A model generated the notes under the pieces. That model saw only the letters and a list, made by a program, of their open reading frames with translations. It was not told the origin of the DNA and did no database searches. Below, in pieces: positions 18,123 through 62,244 of a stretch of 64,000 nucleotides of DNA. Position 1 is the stretch's first letter; each line of letters starts with the position of its first letter. The stretch covers positions 729,151 through 793,150 of the forward strand of contig JAMPAX010000001.1 of NCBI GenBank assembly GCA_023667015.1, in the 5' to 3' direction. A program made the position numbers and the translations under genes. The stretch is from Muribaculaceae bacterium (lineage in GTDB: Bacteria > Bacteroidota > Bacteroidia > Bacteroidales > Muribaculaceae).

Positions 18123-18305
18123 TGTTAGTCATCCGGATGCCCGGTTTTTCATTCCTCGTGAGTTTGCAACCCAATGCAGGAAGGATAAGAAATGGTGGGA
18201 AGACTGTGTAACGGATATAATGCTGCTCTTAGCTTATTCGGATACTTTTGCATTTAGCAACGCTAATTTTTTGTTTTAACGCTAAATGTTCGATTGTATC
18301 CTTTT

Positions 18306-20426
18306 ATGAATAAGCTTATTAAATTTGTCCTACCGGATTCTTCACCAGAGGCTGTATGCTGCGATGGGCAGGTTCCCGAAGCGGAGCAATGGCTACTCCC
18401 CCCTGCGGATTCTACCGACCCTTCTAACCCTTCTTCCGGAAGTGCTGATGATTCTTACTTAGTGCCTGCGTTGGGAGAATTTGTAGGTAAGTTCCCAACA
18501 AATGCCAAGATCCTCGGTACCCACAGACATGTTGGCACCGACGATTTCAATGTCATTTTCACCCTTCCTTCAGGCCTTTATTTTCTGAAATTTAATGCAA
18601 AATCAAAGAATTTCTCTGTCGCCGTAGAGATACCGCTCGCCTCTGCTGTCTCCCCGGACAGACTTGTCATTGCCGATTCTTGCGACCGATGGATTGTCTT
18701 CATTCACAGAGAGGAAAACTCCGTAGGAGACCTCCCCGCCGGTGAGGTGCTATATTCAGTGTGGAAGCCTGATGATTCCCTTCCCGGAGGAGGTCGCTAT
18801 AGCATCCCCGCCGGCCTGCCGGAATCTTCTTATGTAGATTATTCTTTCGCGGATACTACTCTTGAGGGATATGTTGGGGTTGCCGGAAATTATCCGACAA
18901 TAGAAATATCAGTAGATTGTCCTTCCTCTATAGCGACATCTGTGCATGATTGGCTCATCGGAGCAGGCTCTATTGGTGAAGAATTCTACTCCTCTGCTTT
19001 TGAGAAAGTGCGCAGTGACATTAATGCCGCTCTGTGTGAAGAATGGCAACTTTATGTATCCTCCTGTCAAGGGTCTGACAAACACTTATTTCCGTTTAAT
19101 GTACATGCCGCCTGGGAGGTTGAAGCTCGCGGCTGTAGTCGCAAGTTTATCCTTTCGCCCTCTGCATCGCGGCTTTTGCTGGAGGATTTTTCTTCGGTAG
19201 ATATTAGGATTGATGATTTTTCAATAGCGAATGGTAATTTGCTCTTAAAGGTGCTCTTTTCAAGAAAGCCTCAACAATTGATAATAAAGACATCTTCGGT
19301 AGTATTACCCGATTATCTCAACGGTGAATTTGGGTATGTCGCAAATCAGAAATTAATCATCGACAAGTATATCGATATCTTTACAGATGATAGCGGGGAG
19401 CTATCCATCGGACCCCTTCACAGTGTCTCCACAGGGAGTGAGCGCGGAAGAGGATGGACCCTCCAGCCGAATCTCCATAAAATTTTGCAATTAAAAAGTC
19501 AGGAGGTTCCGGCACATATAAAGGAGAATTTCCAAGCTGCAGGTGGGATTAATTACAATTCCAGAATGATTCTCTATAATAGTGAGGAAATTAGGGTTTC
19601 GGAAGAGAAATTCCCACCACTGATGCAAAGTTCTTCAAGTTTTGAGGGTCAGGAATTAATTAGTATAGTTGCCTCAATGCGGGCTCTATCATCAGGACAA
19701 TTCGGTGAATTCCCACTCTATGCCTTTTGTCGAGATGGAATAAGAGCACTGACCGCCACAGAGGAGGGTGGCTTTCGTTCGGTTCAGCTTATCAGCCGTG
19801 ATCTCTTGTTGAAAGACACTCATCCGGTGTCTACTGCTAATAGTGTAGTATTCTCTACGCTTCGTGGGGTGGTGGAACTCAATGGGTCACGGACAGAAGT
19901 CATACTCGCCCCTGAAAGCCATAGAGATCTACCTCTTGTCAGAGCATGGCATTATCCTACGGAGAGCATAATTGCAGACTATGGTCAGAGTGCGATTTCA
20001 CTTTCAGAGGATGGAAAAAAGAATCTACCTCTTACTATTCCCCGAGGAACAGAGTATTTTGGGGAATGGCCATTACTTTTTGCAATGATTGGGAGTAGTG
20101 TATTCCAAGTGTTGCTATCGGAATATGTTGAAGAAGAGATTACTGCACGAAGTGGGGAAATTCTTCCAACATTGACAACACGGCCTTTCAAGTTCGGGTC
20201 TGCGATGAAGACGAAGGTACTGCGCTACCTGTCGCTGACACCGGATGGCAAGGTTGGGGGATGGATAATAGAGGGAAGCAATGACCTGCACAGATGGCAC
20301 ATCTTGGGATGCAACGAAGCGGGTCGTCCCATCGGGCCGATGCGCGGAAGTGGCTGGCGCTTCTTCCGCCTCATAATGCGAGATGTAAAGACCCTTCCCG
20401 GCGGGGTATTCGTAGTCTATTACTAA
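18306..20426 (+). CDS. Large orphan protein, possibly phage-derived
   Basis: A 706-residue protein without a signal peptide or membrane segment. I start at ATG 18306 (MNKLIKFVLP). Two stretches recall structural proteins of Bacteroidales prophages that I know only by pattern: GEFPLYAFCRDGIRAL followed by VQLISRDLLLKDTHPVST and VVFSTLRGVVELNGSR, a beta-propeller-like phrase; and a C-terminal WIIEGSNDLHRWHILG with RGSGWRFFRLIM. It is single, downstream of tRNA-Leu (a common integration site), with no phage neighbours. TACTTTTG at 18243-18250 may be its -7 box. Function is not assigned; a remnant of an integrated phage is my inference. Confidence 0.6.
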   Translation: MNKLIKFVLPDSSPEAVCCDGQVPEAEQWLLPPADSTDPSNPSSGSADDSYLVPALGEFVGKFPTNAKILGTHRHVGTDDFNVIFTLPSGLYFLKFNAKSKNFSVAVEIPLASAVSPDRLVIADSCDRWIVFIHREENSVGDLPAGEVLYSVWKPDDSLPGGGRYSIPAGLPESSYVDYSFADTTLEGYVGVAGNYPTIEISVDCPSSIATSVHDWLIGAGSIGEEFYSSAFEKVRSDINAALCEEWQLYVSSCQGSDKHLFPFNVHAAWEVEARGCSRKFILSPSASRLLLEDFSSVDIRIDDFSIANGNLLLKVLFSRKPQQLIIKTSSVVLPDYLNGEFGYVANQKLIIDKYIDIFTDDSGELSIGPLHSVSTGSERGRGWTLQPNLHKILQLKSQEVPAHIKENFQAAGGINYNSRMILYNSEEIRVSEEKFPPLMQSSSSFEGQELISIVASMRALSSGQFGEFPLYAFCRDGIRALTATEEGGFRSVQLISRDLLLKDTHPVSTANSVVFSTLRGVVELNGSRTEVILAPESHRDLPLVRAWHYPTESIIADYGQSAISLSEDGKKNLPLTIPRGTEYFGEWPLLFAMIGSSVFQVLLSEYVEEEITARSGEILPTLTTRPFKFGSAMKTKVLRYLSLTPDGKVGGWIIEGSNDLHRWHILGCNEAGRPIGPMRGSGWRFFRLIMRDVKTLPGGVFVVYY

Positions 20427-30217: not shown

Positions 30218-30343
30218 AATATTCAATATTTATTAATATATTCTGTTTGCGAAGTTAACAAAAATTTCTCAATTCCCAATAAAGCGTTCCGCAATTGTAT
30301 GTAGAATGTTTGTGGCTGTTTTTAATCTAATATGGAATATTGA

Positions 30344-30380
30344 AACGGGACACGGAAACTTCAAGCTTCCGCGTCCCGTT
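30344..30380 (-). terminator. Terminator after the B12-regulated gene
   Basis: Arms AACGGGACACGGAA and TTCCGCGTCCCGTT, one mismatch that becomes a G-U pair in the minus-strand RNA. Lies 31 bp past the stop. Confidence 0.75.
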
Positions 30381-30411: not shown

Positions 30412-33400
30412 TTATTTGATTACGATTTTCTGTGACTTGCCGTTGCTGCCGCGTACTACGTAGACGCCTGCTGCCAGGTTCAGTCCTTCGATGTCATTGA
30501 TGCTGTCAGTCTCAGCAACGCGCACACCACCTACAGTGTATACTGTGTAGACAACGTGTGACACTGCGAAATTGGCATCTACACCTACAGAGTTGTCTAC
30601 AAGCACGTTGACCTGCTTGGAGATTACTCGGCCGTTGGACTCTGCATTCACGGTAAAGGTGTGGTTGCCTTCATGCTTGGGAGTGACGGTCAGTGTCTTG
30701 CCATTGAGTACTACTTCTACTGCATCGCCGGCGCGTGTCATATCTTCCTCGGAAATCCATAAGTTGATGTTGCAGTCGTGGTTGTCACGGTCGGTAACGT
30801 TGAGTTCGATTGTCTTGCCCTCATCAGCAGGGTTGAAGGCTATGTCGGTGTCGAGTTCAAACTCTACATCATAGCGGTCGGTGCGTACCGGCATTGCGGG
30901 GAACCACCAGTAGCTCGGCAGCTTAACAATCTTCTTAGTATCACCTGTCTTTGCGTCTACAAATACATACCAGTTGTCGAGAGCTGCACTACCGAAACCG
31001 GGGGTTATGGCATACATATATGTCTCTGTCAGGTCATCGTATCCGCAGGATCCGTATGCTTTGACCATCTTATAGCCCTCTATCATCTTTGTGCTGTGGG
31101 TATAGACGGGAGTCAGAGTTGAGGGGTCTGCCACTTCATCGAGATCCCAGCGATAGAAGGTGCCGTTGCCCCATATGAGGGTATTCTTGCTGACTGCTGA
31201 CTTGATGGTCACAGGACGCCATTGGCCGGGGGTGCAGGTAATGGACCCGGGGATGCTGTAAGTCTTAACTTCTTCAAGAGTCTCAGGATTGATCTCTGTC
31301 AGGCTATTCTTATTGGCGAGCCATACACGTCCGTCGGCGCTGACTACTACACCCTGAATATCCTTGCTTTCGAAGGTTTTGACATATTTGTCGTTGGTAG
31401 TATCAATGACACCAAGACCGATGCTGCAGTTGGTATAGAAGACGTACTTGCCGCTCTTTACCATATCGCCAATCTGACCGAAGCGGTCGGCTGATGTTCC
31501 TTCGATGTCGGATTCTGCTACTGTGAGGTCATCGAGATTCAGTACGCGTACGCCGGCTGTTGTGCCGATATAAGCCTTGGAGGGGGAGACACCCACTACG
31601 GAGCGACCGTCACCGCCAATCTCGTCGATAGCGCCAATATGCTTGAATGTTTTGGCATCGGCTACGACTACGCGACCACCGGAACGTACCGGACGAGTGT
31701 CACCGCCGTCCCAGGCCTGCTTAGACATTACAATCAGCTTGTCGGCCCATACTGTAGCTGAGCAGGATGTGGCACCAAAGGCCATATTGTTGTTCTGGTT
31801 GCCATAAGCACGGTAGTAGATATTGCCGGCATCGTCGATGAAGTTCAGCGAACCGGAAGTGTGAGTAAACCATTCCTCGTTGAGCCAAATCATACCTTCG
31901 GAGAAATCACCCTCAGGACGATTTTCGGGGTCTACGCCCTTCACTTTGATATAGTATGTGGCGTTGACTGTTCCGTCAATGCTGGATACTGTCATCTTGG
32001 TAGTACCTTCTGAGTGAGCTACCAGGGATTTGACATTCATGTAGATTGAAGCAATAGATTCATCTTCAAAGGATACTGTGAAGCCGGTAAAATCGGCATT
32101 TTCAGGATAATATACAGGGGTGATAATCTGTACGCCCATATTGTCGAGTTCGATTGTACTTCCTTCTTCGATCCCCTGAAGAGCTATGCTGGTGATTGGA
32201 TGTGCTATTACGGTAGAAACCTTGGTATAGTAGCCATCTTCGGGATAAACCTTGATATATTGATTATTCTTTTTAAAATAAAGGTAGGGACGAAGGATAA
32301 CTTCGGAGGGGGTTGATACGGTTATCTTGTTGAGCATATTGCCATTCTTCGCATTTGCAACATAGCCGCTGTAGTCATAGATGGTTTTCTTTGTCTCGGG
32401 GTCGAGTACCTCAGTACAGATGCCGGAGCTGTAGAAATACTGAGCATCATCGAGCACATTGGCAATCATCGGGAATTCTACTGATTTGCCGTTTTCAGTG
32501 TTGAGCACGATTTCAGGCGCCATCCATACACCCTGCTGATCAGCGGGACGGAGGAGGAATTCTTCGCCGATTTCGGCTGTGCCATATACGAAGTTGATCT
32601 TGTCGCCGGAAGTTACTTCTGTGTCATAGTCAGCTTCTTCGCCATTGACGAGTATCTTCCAGCTTGCTTCGCTGTTGTTGACAGCCCAGTGGTCATACTC
32701 GCTGGCACTCTTAACCTGGGTATAGTCTATGTCATCGATAGTATCGAAGATGTTCCAGGCTCCGAGATAGCGATGGGAACCTAAAGCATCGGAGTATTCT
32801 TTGTCGCCAACTACTACTTTTGCGGAGTTGTCCCCATTGGTATCGAAGCCGAAACCTACCTTACCTCCACCCTTGGAAGAATAGATTGAGTAGTAACGCT
32901 TGTCGTTTGTAAGCAGAGTCGTGATGACGTCGCTGACCTTATCTCCATTCTTGGCATATACGCCGGAGGCGAGGTTGTCGAGAGCTACTTTGTCGCCCCA
33001 GGTGAAGGTCACCCCGATGATGTTCATGCCGTCGCCGACATTGCTAAGATACTTGCTTTCATCCTTGGTGCGAAGCTCCATAAGGTTCGCAAATTGTCCC
33101 CAGAAGGAGTCTTTTTGCCAAGCCTCAAGAGATCCTGCGGGTACGAAAATCTGCCCTTTGTAGCCGGGAGTTGACCAACGATCATATTCATAAGCAACGG
33201 GTGTTGTGCTCGCAAAATAGAAGTCTCCTGACATTGATCCGAATACTCCTGTTGCAATTGAGGTTGCAGATGCCGGAATATGTACTTCCTTGAGTGGGCT
33301 GTCTTTCATAGCCGGGATGAAGGCTACACCTTCTTCGAACACGACTTTATTAAGACTTGTACATTTTTCGAAAACATTGGTGTATTGGCCTTCCTCAAAT

Positions 33401-34248
33401 GCAACACTACCGGGAATGGTGATTTCCTTGATGGCTTTACATTCTGAGAAACAGCTGTTCCCAATGTATTTCAAGTTCTCGGGAAGAGTAATTTCCGTCA
33501 GATTGAGGCATCCTTTGAATGCACTGCTTTCTATACGTTCAAGCCCTTCCGGAAGCTCAATAGTTGAGATGCGCGTATAGCGGAATGCATCCCCTCCGAT
33601 TGTCTTTAATGTAGACGGCAACTTGATAACCTTTGCTCCGGAAATCTTATTGCTGTTGTAGCTGTTGTGGAATGATTGTGGAATCTCGGTTACCTTTGCT
33701 CTGATATCCAGAGTCTCAAGCCCACGACAGGAGTCAAAGGCTCCTCTGCCGAGTGTGAGACACCCTTCCGGAACAATAGCTTCTTTGAGTACGTAGCAGT
33801 TGCCGAAGGCATATTCTCCAAGCTGCTCCAATCCTGCCGGCAGATCAGCTTTGGTCATTACCACATTTGCATAGAAAGCACGGTTGCCGATGACTTTCAG
33901 AGTGGAAGGAAGATTGACTGTGGTAACACCTCCGCATGAATAAATGCCTTGATACTTAATCTCTTGAATACCTTCCTGAAGGGTAATTGTTGTAGCTTGC
34001 TCAGCATCTGCGAGACCATTCTGGCCAATAGCTACCACAGAGTAGGTTGTGCCGTCATGTTCAACTATGGAGGGTACCGTGATTTCGGTCATAGTGTACT
34101 TGCCCGAAGCCGGTTTGGAAACCTCTACAGTCTTGGCTCCGGCATCGAGGATTGTGTAGTACAAGTCCCCGTACTGGAAGTCAACTGCCCAAAGCCCTCC
34201 CCATAGGGATAGCCCTAAGGCTGTTGCAAACATTCTGTTTAGTTTCAT
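30412..34248 (-). CDS. B12-riboswitch-controlled giant surface protein: LRR, BtuG-like propeller, sorting-tail-like end
   Basis: A 1278-residue exported protein. Signal peptide 1-21 (no lipobox). Residues ~50-395 are BspA-type leucine-rich repeats (LPSTLKVIGNRAFYAN, LPEGLERIESSAFKGC). Residues ~405-560 form a domain starting VTFTWGDKVALDNLASGVY with EYDHWAVNNSEASWKILVNG, like domains of surface proteins in cobalamin loci (DUF4430-like). An Ig-like stretch follows (~690-770). Residues ~785-1120 form a beta-propeller opening MIWLNEEWFTHTSGSLNFID and closing YWWFPAMPVR, very like DUF5074/BtuG proteins that bind B12 at the cell surface. The end (~1228-1278) resembles a type IX secretion tail. Role in B12 capture is inferred from this plus the upstream riboswitch. 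No TonB receptor is adjacent. Confidence 0.8.
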   Translation of the reverse strand: MKLNRMFATALGLSLWGGLWAVDFQYGDLYYTILDAGAKTVEVSKPASGKYTMTEITVPSIVEHDGTTYSVVAIGQNGLADAEQATTITLQEGIQEIKYQGIYSCGGVTTVNLPSTLKVIGNRAFYANVVMTKADLPAGLEQLGEYAFGNCYVLKEAIVPEGCLTLGRGAFDSCRGLETLDIRAKVTEIPQSFHNSYNSNKISGAKVIKLPSTLKTIGGDAFRYTRISTIELPEGLERIESSAFKGCLNLTEITLPENLKYIGNSCFSECKAIKEITIPGSVAFEEGQYTNVFEKCTSLNKVVFEEGVAFIPAMKDSPLKEVHIPASATSIATGVFGSMSGDFYFASTTPVAYEYDRWSTPGYKGQIFVPAGSLEAWQKDSFWGQFANLMELRTKDESKYLSNVGDGMNIIGVTFTWGDKVALDNLASGVYAKNGDKVSDVITTLLTNDKRYYSIYSSKGGGKVGFGFDTNGDNSAKVVVGDKEYSDALGSHRYLGAWNIFDTIDDIDYTQVKSASEYDHWAVNNSEASWKILVNGEEADYDTEVTSGDKINFVYGTAEIGEEFLLRPADQQGVWMAPEIVLNTENGKSVEFPMIANVLDDAQYFYSSGICTEVLDPETKKTIYDYSGYVANAKNGNMLNKITVSTPSEVILRPYLYFKKNNQYIKVYPEDGYYTKVSTVIAHPITSIALQGIEEGSTIELDNMGVQIITPVYYPENADFTGFTVSFEDESIASIYMNVKSLVAHSEGTTKMTVSSIDGTVNATYYIKVKGVDPENRPEGDFSEGMIWLNEEWFTHTSGSLNFIDDAGNIYYRAYGNQNNNMAFGATSCSATVWADKLIVMSKQAWDGGDTRPVRSGGRVVVADAKTFKHIGAIDEIGGDGRSVVGVSPSKAYIGTTAGVRVLNLDDLTVAESDIEGTSADRFGQIGDMVKSGKYVFYTNCSIGLGVIDTTNDKYVKTFESKDIQGVVVSADGRVWLANKNSLTEINPETLEEVKTYSIPGSITCTPGQWRPVTIKSAVSKNTLIWGNGTFYRWDLDEVADPSTLTPVYTHSTKMIEGYKMVKAYGSCGYDDLTETYMYAITPGFGSAALDNWYVFVDAKTGDTKKIVKLPSYWWFPAMPVRTDRYDVEFELDTDIAFNPADEGKTIELNVTDRDNHDCNINLWISEEDMTRAGDAVEVVLNGKTLTVTPKHEGNHTFTVNAESNGRVISKQVNVLVDNSVGVDANFAVSHVVYTVYTVGGVRVAETDSINDIEGLNLAAGVYVVRGSNGKSQKIVIK

Positions 34249-34305
34249 GATGTTAACTTGTTTTGAGATAGATTAAAATTAAGAGTTTGTTACATACAAG
34301 AAAAG

Positions 34306-34338
34306 CCCGCTTGCGTTTCTCTCAGAAACACAAGCGGG
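34306..34338 (-). terminator. Leader terminator of the B12 riboswitch
   Basis: 15-bp arms (34306-34320, 34324-34338) with one G-U pair and a GAG loop in the RNA, followed on the minus strand by CTTTTCTT. It lies between the aptamer and the ATG at 34248, so it fits an expression platform that stops transcription. Confidence 0.75.
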
Positions 34339-34439
34339 AACAGAATATTCGGAACGTTGTAGGTGCTGACTTCTTCTAAGAGGGAGGCATCGCAATCGCG
34401 CAACGCGTTCTTCTCAAAAGTTGTATCATGCATAGTATC

Positions 34440-34672
34440 CGTTGCCCATAATCCCGTAGGCGCTGTCTGAGATAAGCGTTAATGGCAGGTCTTCTGACTT
34501 ATCCTCCTCCGATTCGGCCTTCTCAGAGCTTTTCTGCTCCAATGACTTGATGAATCGAATTATTGTAGCCAACGAATTGCGCTACACGGAATTACAGCAG
34601 CGGGTACTGTTCCGGATTCTCACCGGATTCCCTTTTGATGAAACCGCTAATAGACATCTATATGTCCCGGTC
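34440..34672 (-). promoter_or_regulatory. Cobalamin riboswitch
   Basis: Read on the minus strand, the region contains the conserved cobalamin aptamer strings in order: AAAGGGAATCCGGTGAGAA, GGAACAGTACCCGCTGCTGT, AAGTCATTGG, GAGAAGGCCGA and the B12 box AAGTCAGAAGACCTGCC. It sits in the 5' leader of the giant surface protein gene. Binding of adenosyl- or related cobalamin would be expected to lower expression. The terminator at 34306 is the likely output. Confidence 0.93.
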
Positions 34673-34688
34673 TCAACCATTACGGCCG

Positions 34689-34718
34689 CAAAATTATAAA
34701 TTTTTTCTTTTACTACAA
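34689..34718 (-). promoter_or_regulatory. Promoter of the riboswitch transcript
   Basis: On the minus strand TTG (34716-34718), 19 bp, TAATTTTG (34689-34696). The transcript would begin near 34682, giving a leader of about 430 nt. Confidence 0.78.
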
Positions 34719-34755
34719 AATTTTTTTACTATCAACTATCAACTATCACTCATCA

Positions 34756-58794: not shown

Positions 58795-61700
58795 TTATTT
58801 TACGAGTACTTTCTTGCCGTTGATGATGTAGAGACCCGGAGCAAGTGTCTTCAGTGTCTCAGCCTCAACGTTCTGGAATACGCGGATACCTGTAAGAGTG
58901 TAAACAGTGTAGAGAGCCTCGGCCTCAACGCCGTCAACACCGGTTTCCTCACCTTTGACTACTAAATTGATGGATGTCTTCGGCAGGTTGACGCGAGTGG
59001 ACTTGCCATCTACATCATCTGTCCAGTATACAAGACCACTGGAAAGTTCCAGTCTGTAGTTGCCGGGGTAAAGTGCGGTTATACCGTTCTGATATGGAGT
59101 CTTCAGTGTATAAGTCTTGCTATTATTGTCAACCTTTTTGGATGAGTATGTATTAACCAAAACTTCTGTACGGGTGTCGTCATTATAGTATAGCTTGACG
59201 CTACCGCTGATATTCCAGCTTTTGGGAGTATCTTCAAAGGTGATGGTGAATGACTCAAGATCTTTTGCTGTAACGTTGTTTGTGTCGAAAGAGAACTTGG
59301 GTTCGCGACCGGTGTTCTGCGGTGCGGACATCTTCAGGTCGTTAATCTTCACCTCTTCGTTGGCCCATTCCTTACCATTGTATACGAGGTTGTAGGAGCT
59401 TGCGGGTACTTCGAGAATAACAGCTGTATACTCGCTTGCGGGCTGCTTGGTAATCGGAGTGACAGGTGTCAGAATTACCTTGTTACCGTCGGAGGTGATG
59501 TTAAGCTTGCCTGCCTCGGTGGGGTTGGTGGATCCGAACCACAGTGTTGCCTGTGCACCTTCGTTTACAACAACGTTCTCGCAACCTTCATAAGTGAGGG
59601 TAACGGTGGGGAAGGGGTTGTAGGATCCGGCAGCGGGAGTGTAAGTATACTTCTGTACAGGTGCGTTGGCATCAATACCGCCGGTTACTGTGAAGTTGTA
59701 TTTGTATGTGCCGGGAGTATTATCAAGATTCTCGAACTCTTTCCATGTAGCGTATGTATCATCTGTCAGCTGCGTACGGAAGAAGTTCCATGGCATTTCG
59801 AGTACATAGTCGCCATTTCTCTTGATAGGTTCGAGTCCGCCATTGCGGAGGTCAAAGTAGATGTATCCGTTGCGGTAGTATGGGAGAGATCCGGCAGGTG
59901 TTGTGCCGTCAATAAGGGCGGTGCCTTCAGCGTTAATCTTCGGTGAGTTCAGCGGGAAGGTAGCTACCTGTTCCTTGTTCTTGCCGTCTACACGGTAAAG
60001 AACTGCGGAAGCGTCAGCACCCTGAATTGCGATTGCGGAAACAGCACCTAATCCGTCGTCGTCGTTCTTTGCTTCGCGGAAGGTTGTCTCGTTGAGGACG
60101 GTCTTGCTGTCGTATGGTAGGAGCTTGATGATTGAAAGTGCCTTGTCGAACACAACTGAGGCATTGTCACCGCTGGGGTCGGAAAGGCTAACCTTGGCTG
60201 TCGGGGTGAATGTACCGATACCGATAGTGTAGTTGAAGTTAGCTGCACCGAGCTTGGTGTCGCCGTCCATGAAGAAGTCTGCAGGTACTTTTACAGTGTA
60301 GAGACCATCTTCGTCGCGCATGTCGGAGCCGAAACGCAGTGTCACTGTGCCACCACCGCCGAAGCCTGCGGAGCCTTCTGATACTTCTGCAAATGCTTCA
60401 TCCTTATATGTAGCTGTTGCGGGTATTTCCATGAGAATCTTACCACCCTTCACAAGCTGAATCTTACCGGTGCAAGCGCGGTTAATCTTCAGAGCTTCAG
60501 TTGTGGTGTAAATTACTTCGTTCATGCCAAAGTCGGTCTGGGAAAGAATCATAGGTGCGTTCTCCTGCGGGAAGCTGCCGGTTACGTAGGTGCGGAAGGT
60601 GTCGCCCTCTACGAGCTTGGAGTTGATGGAGAAGTTGAAGGAGATTTCTCCCATTGTGGTGCCGTCTACCTTGAAGCTGTCTTTGCCGAAGACTACCTTA
60701 TAGGTGCCGTCTGCAAGAGCTGGAAGGTCAGGGTCAGCCTGGAAGGCGAAGGTGAAGGTGTTGTTGTTGGAGCTCCGGAGCACGAAGTTCTTGGAAATAT
60801 CTACCTTCGACTCTGTAGTTACAGTAACTGAAGCTGTGCTGAGAAGTTCTGTTGTCTGAGCGTTCGGGAAGCTGATGCTCATGTTGGTGAAGCTCTTTAC
60901 GGTCTCGTTGTTGGCCGGGAAGAGTACATAGTCTGTAGGTGATGTGTTCCCCTCAATGATAAGTGTAAGGTTCAGAGCGGGACTGTCTTTCACAGTGCCG
61001 TTAGCCATGGTCAGCTTGAACAGACCGGCCTTGAAGCTGTATACGTATGTTCCGGCTTCAGTCACGGGTGTAGGATAGTTGAAGGTCAGATGATTCTGTT
61101 TTGTATCCCATGTGCAGCGGGGCATGTTCTTGGTCGCGATTACTACGTTGTCCTTTGTAGCCGTAAACCAAGTATCATCCATCTCGTCGTTGAGATCCCA
61201 ACTTATGATGTTGCCGAAATCAAGAGCAAAGGAGCTGATCTCTTTTACTTTCGACCCGGTTGACGGGGTGAAGGTGAATGTCGGTTCAATCTCGGGAATC
61301 ACCAGTGTGCCTACTATCGCCGGGTTTGGAATCACAGTGCCGTTAGCAAGAGTGATGTCGAGGAATCCCTCGGGAATTCTGAAGGTGTATGTGCCGGGAG
61401 TTGCCAGCATGTTGCCTTGGCGGAAGCTGAACTGGAAGAACTGGTTTCTTCCGGTGCATGTCGGGTTGAGAATGATGTCTACACCGGGTGTGGAGCATGT
61501 AACGCTGCCTGCCCAATCATCGGTGGTCTCAACCTTGTTGCTGAATTTGACTTTGCTGTCTTCGGGGAATTCAACAATCCAGGAGGTAATATCATCAACT
61601 ACTGTTCCATTGGCGGGATCAAGTGTCCATTTCAGCAGGTCGTTTCCTGTCTGTCCAACTTTCTTGTAGATGGCTACAGGTTGGTTGGAGTCCTCAAGGA

Positions 61701-62244
61701 ACTGGAATTCAAACTGATTAATCTTGAACAGACCCAGAAGGTCGTGCTTGTCGCGTGAAGGGTCATTGATGTCAACGTCACCCTCAGCGAAGATGCTTGC
61801 TACAGCGGATTGGGAATCTCCGCGAGCCGCAGCCTGTGATGCTGTCAAGAATTTGATGGTCAGAGGTGTTGGATCGGAAGTGAGAGTCAGCGAACGACGT
61901 CCTACTTCTCCCGGTGCAAGATAGCCTGTCTGTGTGCCGTTGATCTGCTTGAAGGCGTAGGTATCCTTGCCTTTTACCTGTCCGGCATATTGAATTGTGA
62001 AAATCGCAGCGCCTTCAGGTGTACCCTCGATGGTGTTCCTGTCGGCGTAGGAGGCTTCTACTCCGTAGCGGGAGATTGCGCCGTCGCCACTGGTGGACAT
62101 CACCCATTTCAGATGGGGTGCGCCAATGACGTATTCTACGCCTTCTCTCAACTCTGAAGCTGAAGTGACCTTCTGCCACTGGGCGTTGGCGGTCATTGTG
62201 CCGAGCCCTACTACTGTGGCAAGTGCCAGTAATGTTTTCTTCAT
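58795..62244 (-). CDS. Giant secreted protein with Ig-like modules and sorting-tail-like end
   Basis: A 1149-residue protein with a Sec signal (MKKTLLALATVVGLGTMTANA). Residues ~22-190 form a beta-rich unit opening WQKVTSASELREGVEYVIGA. After this come several Ig-like beta-sandwich modules with repeated phrases (GTYTFRIPEGFLDITLANGT, GTYVYSFKAGLFKLTMANGT, DGTYKVVFGKDSFKVDGT), each about 100-130 residues. The last ~50 residues (ALYTVYTLTGIRVFQN, LAPGLYIINGKKVLVK) match the C-terminus of the B12-regulated surface protein and resemble type IX secretion tails. No catalytic motif seen; adhesive or structural surface role is a guess. Confidence 0.75.
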   Translation of the reverse strand: MKKTLLALATVVGLGTMTANAQWQKVTSASELREGVEYVIGAPHLKWVMSTSGDGAISRYGVEASYADRNTIEGTPEGAAIFTIQYAGQVKGKDTYAFKQINGTQTGYLAPGEVGRRSLTLTSDPTPLTIKFLTASQAAARGDSQSAVASIFAEGDVDINDPSRDKHDLLGLFKINQFEFQFLEDSNQPVAIYKKVGQTGNDLLKWTLDPANGTVVDDITSWIVEFPEDSKVKFSNKVETTDDWAGSVTCSTPGVDIILNPTCTGRNQFFQFSFRQGNMLATPGTYTFRIPEGFLDITLANGTVIPNPAIVGTLVIPEIEPTFTFTPSTGSKVKEISSFALDFGNIISWDLNDEMDDTWFTATKDNVVIATKNMPRCTWDTKQNHLTFNYPTPVTEAGTYVYSFKAGLFKLTMANGTVKDSPALNLTLIIEGNTSPTDYVLFPANNETVKSFTNMSISFPNAQTTELLSTASVTVTTESKVDISKNFVLRSSNNNTFTFAFQADPDLPALADGTYKVVFGKDSFKVDGTTMGEISFNFSINSKLVEGDTFRTYVTGSFPQENAPMILSQTDFGMNEVIYTTTEALKINRACTGKIQLVKGGKILMEIPATATYKDEAFAEVSEGSAGFGGGGTVTLRFGSDMRDEDGLYTVKVPADFFMDGDTKLGAANFNYTIGIGTFTPTAKVSLSDPSGDNASVVFDKALSIIKLLPYDSKTVLNETTFREAKNDDDGLGAVSAIAIQGADASAVLYRVDGKNKEQVATFPLNSPKINAEGTALIDGTTPAGSLPYYRNGYIYFDLRNGGLEPIKRNGDYVLEMPWNFFRTQLTDDTYATWKEFENLDNTPGTYKYNFTVTGGIDANAPVQKYTYTPAAGSYNPFPTVTLTYEGCENVVVNEGAQATLWFGSTNPTEAGKLNITSDGNKVILTPVTPITKQPASEYTAVILEVPASSYNLVYNGKEWANEEVKINDLKMSAPQNTGREPKFSFDTNNVTAKDLESFTITFEDTPKSWNISGSVKLYYNDDTRTEVLVNTYSSKKVDNNSKTYTLKTPYQNGITALYPGNYRLELSSGLVYWTDDVDGKSTRVNLPKTSINLVVKGEETGVDGVEAEALYTVYTLTGIRVFQNVEAETLKTLAPGLYIINGKKVLVK

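Follow-up and report, generated by a model that had tools for sequence, protein, structure and literature searches.

We analyzed a cobalamin riboswitch and the single gene that follows it on the minus strand of a 64,000-nucleotide stretch of a Muribaculaceae bacterium genome (contig JAMPAX010000001.1, positions 729,151 to 793,150; the whole stretch is referred to as the window). The gene (30412-34248, minus strand) is one uninterrupted open reading frame (ORF) for an exported protein of 1278 amino acids (aa). This protein was deduced to be, quite probably, a relocated surface corrinoid-capture protein that feeds the BtuB/BtuG transporters encoded elsewhere in the genome. The deduction is founded on the riboswitch with its leader terminator, on the domains of the protein and the kinship of its propeller to BtuK1, on the operon linkage of its family in relatives, and on an empty site in the closest relative. 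The original prediction for this DNA comprised a promoter, a cobalamin aptamer, and a leader terminator ahead of one isolated gene, and all of these were borne out (RF00174 match, 98.8 bits; terminator, 34338-34306; intact ORF, 30412-34248). Its term "one-gene regulon" is misleading, since in relatives the gene is an ordinary member of a riboswitch-btuB-btuG operon and is here detached. The unit belongs to the known Btu capture repertoire, in a detached and enlarged form, and is not a new type of regulon.

Domain make-up of the protein and its kinship to BtuK1

A BtuK-type beta-propeller of the DUF5074 family was assigned to residues 784 to 1121 (30886-31899, minus strand) from a Pfam match of 271.8 bits (E = 1.1e-80; curated cut-off, 27.2 bits). 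The large exported protein of the original prediction was confirmed, but this domain had been missed. When the DUF5074 domain profile was compared with the PDB, the top match was 9s6c (E = 1.9e-18), with BtuG structures at about 5e-8. The sole close genome match of 9s6c in a contig scan was a Bacteroides faecis gene (79% identity), and none was found in 198 genomes of the order. This gene stands first in a B. faecis locus comprising a riboswitch, a DUF5074 lipoprotein, a paralogue, a 282-aa protein, a second riboswitch, BtuB, BtuGH, and a DUF4465 protein. The order of operon 1 of B. thetaiotaomicron is BtuK1, BtuK2, BtuH1, internal riboswitch, BtuB1, BtuGH, and BtuJ1 (PMC12751083). Because the gene order in B. 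faecis equals that of operon 1, we infer that 9s6c is BtuK1 or its orthologue.

BtuK1 binds cobalamin with a dissociation constant of about 0.09 nM by surface plasmon resonance, and BtuK2 is non-binding (PMC12751083). The B. faecis orthologue of BtuK1 matched DUF5074 with 291 bits, and no DUF5074 match was obtained for the BtuK2 orthologue at E = 0.01. Of 53 positions conserved over 65 family members, 49 are retained in the window protein, compared to 27 or 28 in BtuK1 and 19 in BtuK2. The NE-W-H and G-TS motifs are common to the window protein and BtuK1 and are gone from the BtuK2 orthologue; as a lead only, these shared motifs would favor cobalamin binding by the window protein. Judged by these sequence comparisons, the propeller is BtuK-type. 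The whole protein was not filed as BtuK because a lipoprotein signal was not found.

The N terminus of the protein is signal-peptide-like, and inspection of the sequence near it revealed no cysteine that could belong to a lipobox. Residues about 49 to 372 (33133-34104, minus strand) form a leucine-rich repeat (LRR) region of the BspA type (Pfam LRR_5, E = 8e-49). This region is an accessory part and not the conserved core of the protein, since the closest relative, genome G158, lacks it. In the G158 homologue, an in-frame removal has taken out exactly this stretch and left AKTVEV joined to GSLEAWQ. The middle region, residues 400 to 780 (31909-33051, minus strand), gave no Pfam or PDB assignment and is conserved in operon-borne relatives with 33 to 57% identity in alignments. 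It contains a stretch, W-I-VNGEEADYD-SGD-I-F-YG, that resembles beta-grasp.

At the C terminus, residues about 1230 to 1278 (30415-30561, minus strand) resemble a type A sorting tail of the type IX secretion system (T9SS), with a match to TIGR04183 at E = 9e-4 that is under the cut-off of the model. The same model matched the C termini of 7 of the 10 proteins tested, every one of them under the cut-off. The T9SS machinery found in the genome consists of SprA (2493-aa frame) and two C25 peptidases of the PorU type, and type IX secretion is the likely, predicted route of the 1278-aa protein to the surface.

The riboswitch leader and its linkage to btu operons

The Infernal/Rfam check proposed with the original prediction returned a full-length cobalamin riboswitch aptamer (RF00174) at 34467-34696 on the minus strand, covering model positions 1 to 189 of 189 (cmscan, 98.8 bits, E = 1.8e-23). 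The score is 67 bits above the gathering cut-off of 31.5 bits, and by Rfam this is the single cobalamin riboswitch in the window. The aptamer carries the B12 box AAGTCAGAAGACCTGCC, and its L5 loop reads ACCCG (34605-34601). Just 3' of the aptamer lies a P13-like hairpin, GCCTACGGGATTATGGGC, with the loop CGGG (34444-34461, minus strand), which is a candidate kissing-loop partner of L5 (CCCG, 34604-34601). In most of the related genomes examined, a P13-like motif also follows the btuB riboswitches, and the leader was aligned with that of G158.

A Bacteroides-type promoter was read from the sequence at 34689-34719 on the minus strand, with TTTG (34719-34716), a 19-nt spacing, and TAATTTTG (34696-34689), so that the first few RF00174 model positions overlap it. 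The consensus used is general knowledge of Bacteroides promoters. A scan for E. coli-type promoters found none in the region, as expected for this phylum. Between the aptamer and the start codon, the terminator scan placed an intrinsic terminator with a 15-bp stem and the T-rich tail CTTTTCTT (34306-34338, minus strand). Two terminator-like sites were found in the region, compared to 0.5 in shuffles, and folding of the leader gave z = -3.3. A related stem in the G158 btuB leader stands at the position matching the window terminator. The expression platform is described at the sequence level only, as the CCCG/CGGG pairing potential and the 15-bp terminator. An inverted repeat 3' of the gene (30343-30380, minus strand) was seen by eye and does not satisfy the terminator-scan criteria; the transcript likely ends at this repeat (30380-30343).

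The relatives surveyed were 79 genomes of the family, with 57 strong DUF5074 genes. A position within 14 kb downstream of a same-strand cobalamin riboswitch was found for 45 of these 57 genes, against about 0.5% expected, and most of the 12 exceptions are on contigs ending nearby. The riboswitch-gene linkage that was to be sought in relatives is conserved in this protein family, and further stand-alone riboswitch-DUF5074 units exist (L046, L068, L069, L074, L122, and L124). In one common arrangement, the operon encodes, in order, BtuB, BtuG, a PKD_3 protein, a protein of the 328-aa type, a large DUF5074 protein, and a short DUF5074 protein, and the window gene corresponds to the large DUF5074 type. 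The large DUF5074 gene of G158 is in an operon of this kind (L114:7092-9965, minus strand); its 957-aa product is 62% identical to the window protein over the alignment, and its propeller is 70% identical to that of the window. The large DUF5074 protein of genome G031 (L044:131-3979) has 42% identity over the alignment and an LRR region, and its gene adjoins a short DUF5074 gene at a contig end. At the site corresponding to the window unit, no gene was found between the LolD-like gene and cysS in G158, G120, or G174.

The 328-aa exported family (e.g., L007:9859-10845, minus strand) is tryptophan- and tyrosine-rich, occurs in most btu operons of the bacterial family, and gave no Pfam or PDB match by sequence. 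In several genomes it is fused N-terminally to the large DUF5074 protein, and operon-borne large DUF5074 proteins of 1556 to 2099 aa (L039, L041, L045, and L060) combine the 328-aa type, LRR, and DUF5074 in one chain. Its identification as DUF4465/BtuJ was rejected because it has no Pfam match, whereas a DUF4465 match was obtained for the protein that occupies the BtuJ position in B. faecis. A relationship between the 328-aa family and the middle region of the window protein was not supported (hhalign probability, 1%).

Genomic setting, history, and alternative explanations

On the same strand, the riboswitch gene is flanked upstream by a gene for a LolD-like ABC ATPase and downstream by cysS; a copper-type P-ATPase and an rRNA methyltransferase are also encoded upstream. 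As the original prediction had it, Pfam detected no btuB, btuCDF, or corrinoid enzyme among the larger ORFs of the window. Three cobalamin riboswitches are present in the whole genome, two of them at btuB loci outside the window, and the btuB genes nearest to the unit are those on contigs C24 and C18. The C24 locus (L007) consists of a riboswitch, BtuB, BtuG, a PKD_3 protein, the 328-aa exported protein, a short DUF5074 protein, and a 334-aa protein; the 328-aa and short DUF5074 genes overlap by one base. This operon is without a large DUF5074 gene, and the window gene is the sole large DUF5074 copy in the genome. The C18 locus (L008) consists of a riboswitch, BtuB, a 367-aa protein at the BtuG position, BtuF, BtuC, and BtuD, where the BtuF fold was confirmed by Pfam and BtuC and BtuD were read from the sequence. 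The need of the genome for the cofactor is indicated by two large proteins with a strong B12-binding domain, which, judged by size, are probably MetH and methylmalonyl-CoA mutase. Elsewhere in the window are a FopS family small RNA (RF04319; 53904-53970, minus strand; 67.8 bits) and two ORFs with no Pfam match at E = 1e-8 (58795-62244, minus strand, 1149 aa; 18294-20426, plus strand, 710 aa). A second FopS lies upstream of an orphan large DUF5074 gene (L123, 9508-9579).

The window propeller groups with that of G158 in the tree (support, 100/97), and the window aptamer shares 83% identity with the aptamer in the btuB leader of G158, compared to 75% with that of its own C24 locus. These identities disfavor a leader copied from the C24 riboswitch. 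The short DUF5074 protein of C24 groups with other genomes and not with G158; the C24 operon appears to have a history separate from that of the window unit, on which the BtuB and BtuG trees were too poorly resolved to add. Most simply, the leader would have moved along with the gene to the LolD-cysS site, out of a btu operon of the G158 type. We rejected a common origin for all orphan riboswitch-DUF5074 units, since the tree requires at least three changes and the window unit groups with operon members and not with the other orphans. Those of the other stand-alone units that were tested occupy different parts of the tree, so by the tree detachment from the btu operon has occurred more than once.

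The following mechanism is proposed. At low intracellular cobalamin, transcription would read through the leader terminator and the 1278-aa protein would be made; with plentiful cobalamin, the aptamer would be occupied and transcription would end at the terminator. This OFF-switch direction is taken by analogy from published work on Bacteroides B12 riboswitches. The signal peptide would take the protein across the inner membrane, and type IX secretion would probably then bring it to the surface, where the propeller probably binds B12 or other corrinoids outside the cell. The LRR and middle regions could serve as spacer or attachment parts. We infer that the corrinoid would then be handed to the BtuB/BtuG complexes of the two other riboswitch loci.

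Several observations weigh against this proposal. The window propeller has only about 26% identity to BtuK1, and BtuK2 demonstrates that a related propeller may be non-binding (PMC12751083). The T9SS-like tail scores 19.2 bits, compared to the TIGR04183 cut-off of 23 bits, and placement of the protein at the cell surface is unsure because it lacks a lipobox. An AlphaFold model built from four sequences was weak (pLDDT, 53). The 15 best Foldseek matches of this model were BtuG structures, which amounts to agreement only, as the input alignment held a BtuG sequence.

The original prediction had offered "a separate B12 capture or adhesion module." The DUF5074/BtuK-type propeller and the conserved riboswitch linkage of the family give the capture part good support, while "separate" is misleading, as BtuB, BtuG, BtuF, BtuC, and BtuD are encoded elsewhere in the genome; the LRR region may have some role in adhesion. 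One alternative explanation of the whole, deemed unlikely, is that the protein is an adhesin of the LRR type or makes contact with the host, with low B12 signaling its location in the gut and the propeller serving as a scaffold that has lost B12 binding. This alternative is favored by the strong BspA-type LRR match (LRR_5, E = 8e-49), and some BspA-like LRR proteins are known adhesins. The non-binding BtuK2, a relative of BtuK1, provides a precedent for such a scaffold, but the window protein keeps the NE-W-H and G-TS motifs that are missing from the BtuK2 orthologue. In addition, G158 dropped exactly the LRR region while its propeller was kept at 70% identity, and relatives of the window protein are located in btuB operons.

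It is similarly improbable that the protein, while under B12 control, handles another ligand, for example haem, a carrier protein of B12, or a precursor or corrinoid analogue of the vitamin. In favor of this, BtuG2 can remove B12 from intrinsic factor and has several corrinoids as ligands (PMC6143338; PMC10404256), and the LRR and middle regions are without a known ligand; against this, BtuK1, the closest functional relative, binds cyanocobalamin itself. The view that leader and gene are remnants of a btu operon that decayed or was displaced, and that they now do little or nothing, would agree with the orphan leader and propeller both tracking G158 and with the apparently different history of the C24 operon, but it is very improbable given the intact 1278-aa frame, the complete promoter, aptamer, and terminator, and a C24 operon without a large protein, which leaves the orphan as the sole large copy in the genome.

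Corrinoid capture by a relocated member of the Btu repertoire is accordingly the preferred reading. More tentatively, and with considerable doubt, the window protein may represent a class of corrinoid-capture proteins that are large, non-lipidated, and probably exported by type IX secretion, that combine a BtuK-type propeller with LRR or other modules, and that can leave btu operons with their own riboswitch. Such proteins would work at a distance from BtuB, either on the outermost surface or after release, and could take B12 from carrier proteins or neighboring cells. In the literature library searched, no riboswitch-controlled LRR or T9SS B12 protein was found. Competition for B12 in the gut is known mainly from the Bacteroides lipoproteins BtuG, BtuH, BtuJ, and BtuK. 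The uncharacterized Pfam family DUF5074 is now linked to BtuK, and giant versions that are non-lipidated and end in a T9SS-like tail occur in another large gut lineage, where they are able to leave the btu operon under their own riboswitch.

Comparison with known systems

The window protein shares with BtuK1 (B. thetaiotaomicron BT_1486) the DUF5074 propeller, control by a cobalamin riboswitch, export, and the NE-W-H and G-TS motifs. BtuK1 differs in that it is lipidated and small (462 aa in B. faecis), starts with a PKD-like domain, and is encoded inside a btuB operon, whereas the window protein has 1278 aa, is non-lipidated and stand-alone, and adds the LRR and middle regions and the T9SS-like tail. 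The large DUF5074 proteins of G158 and G031 have the same middle region, propeller, and tail; their genes are located in a btu operon (G158) or beside a short DUF5074 gene (G031), while the window gene stands by itself behind a riboswitch of its own.

BtuG (B. thetaiotaomicron BtuG2; the PDB 3dsm and 8bmy group) has a related propeller and a role in B12 capture at the surface like that predicted for the window protein. It is a lipoprotein bound to BtuB with its gene beside btuB, neither of which applies to the window protein. N-terminal LRR_5 repeats are common to the window protein and the BspA-type LRR surface proteins, from which it is distinguished by the joining of the LRR to a BtuK-type propeller and by B12 riboswitch control.

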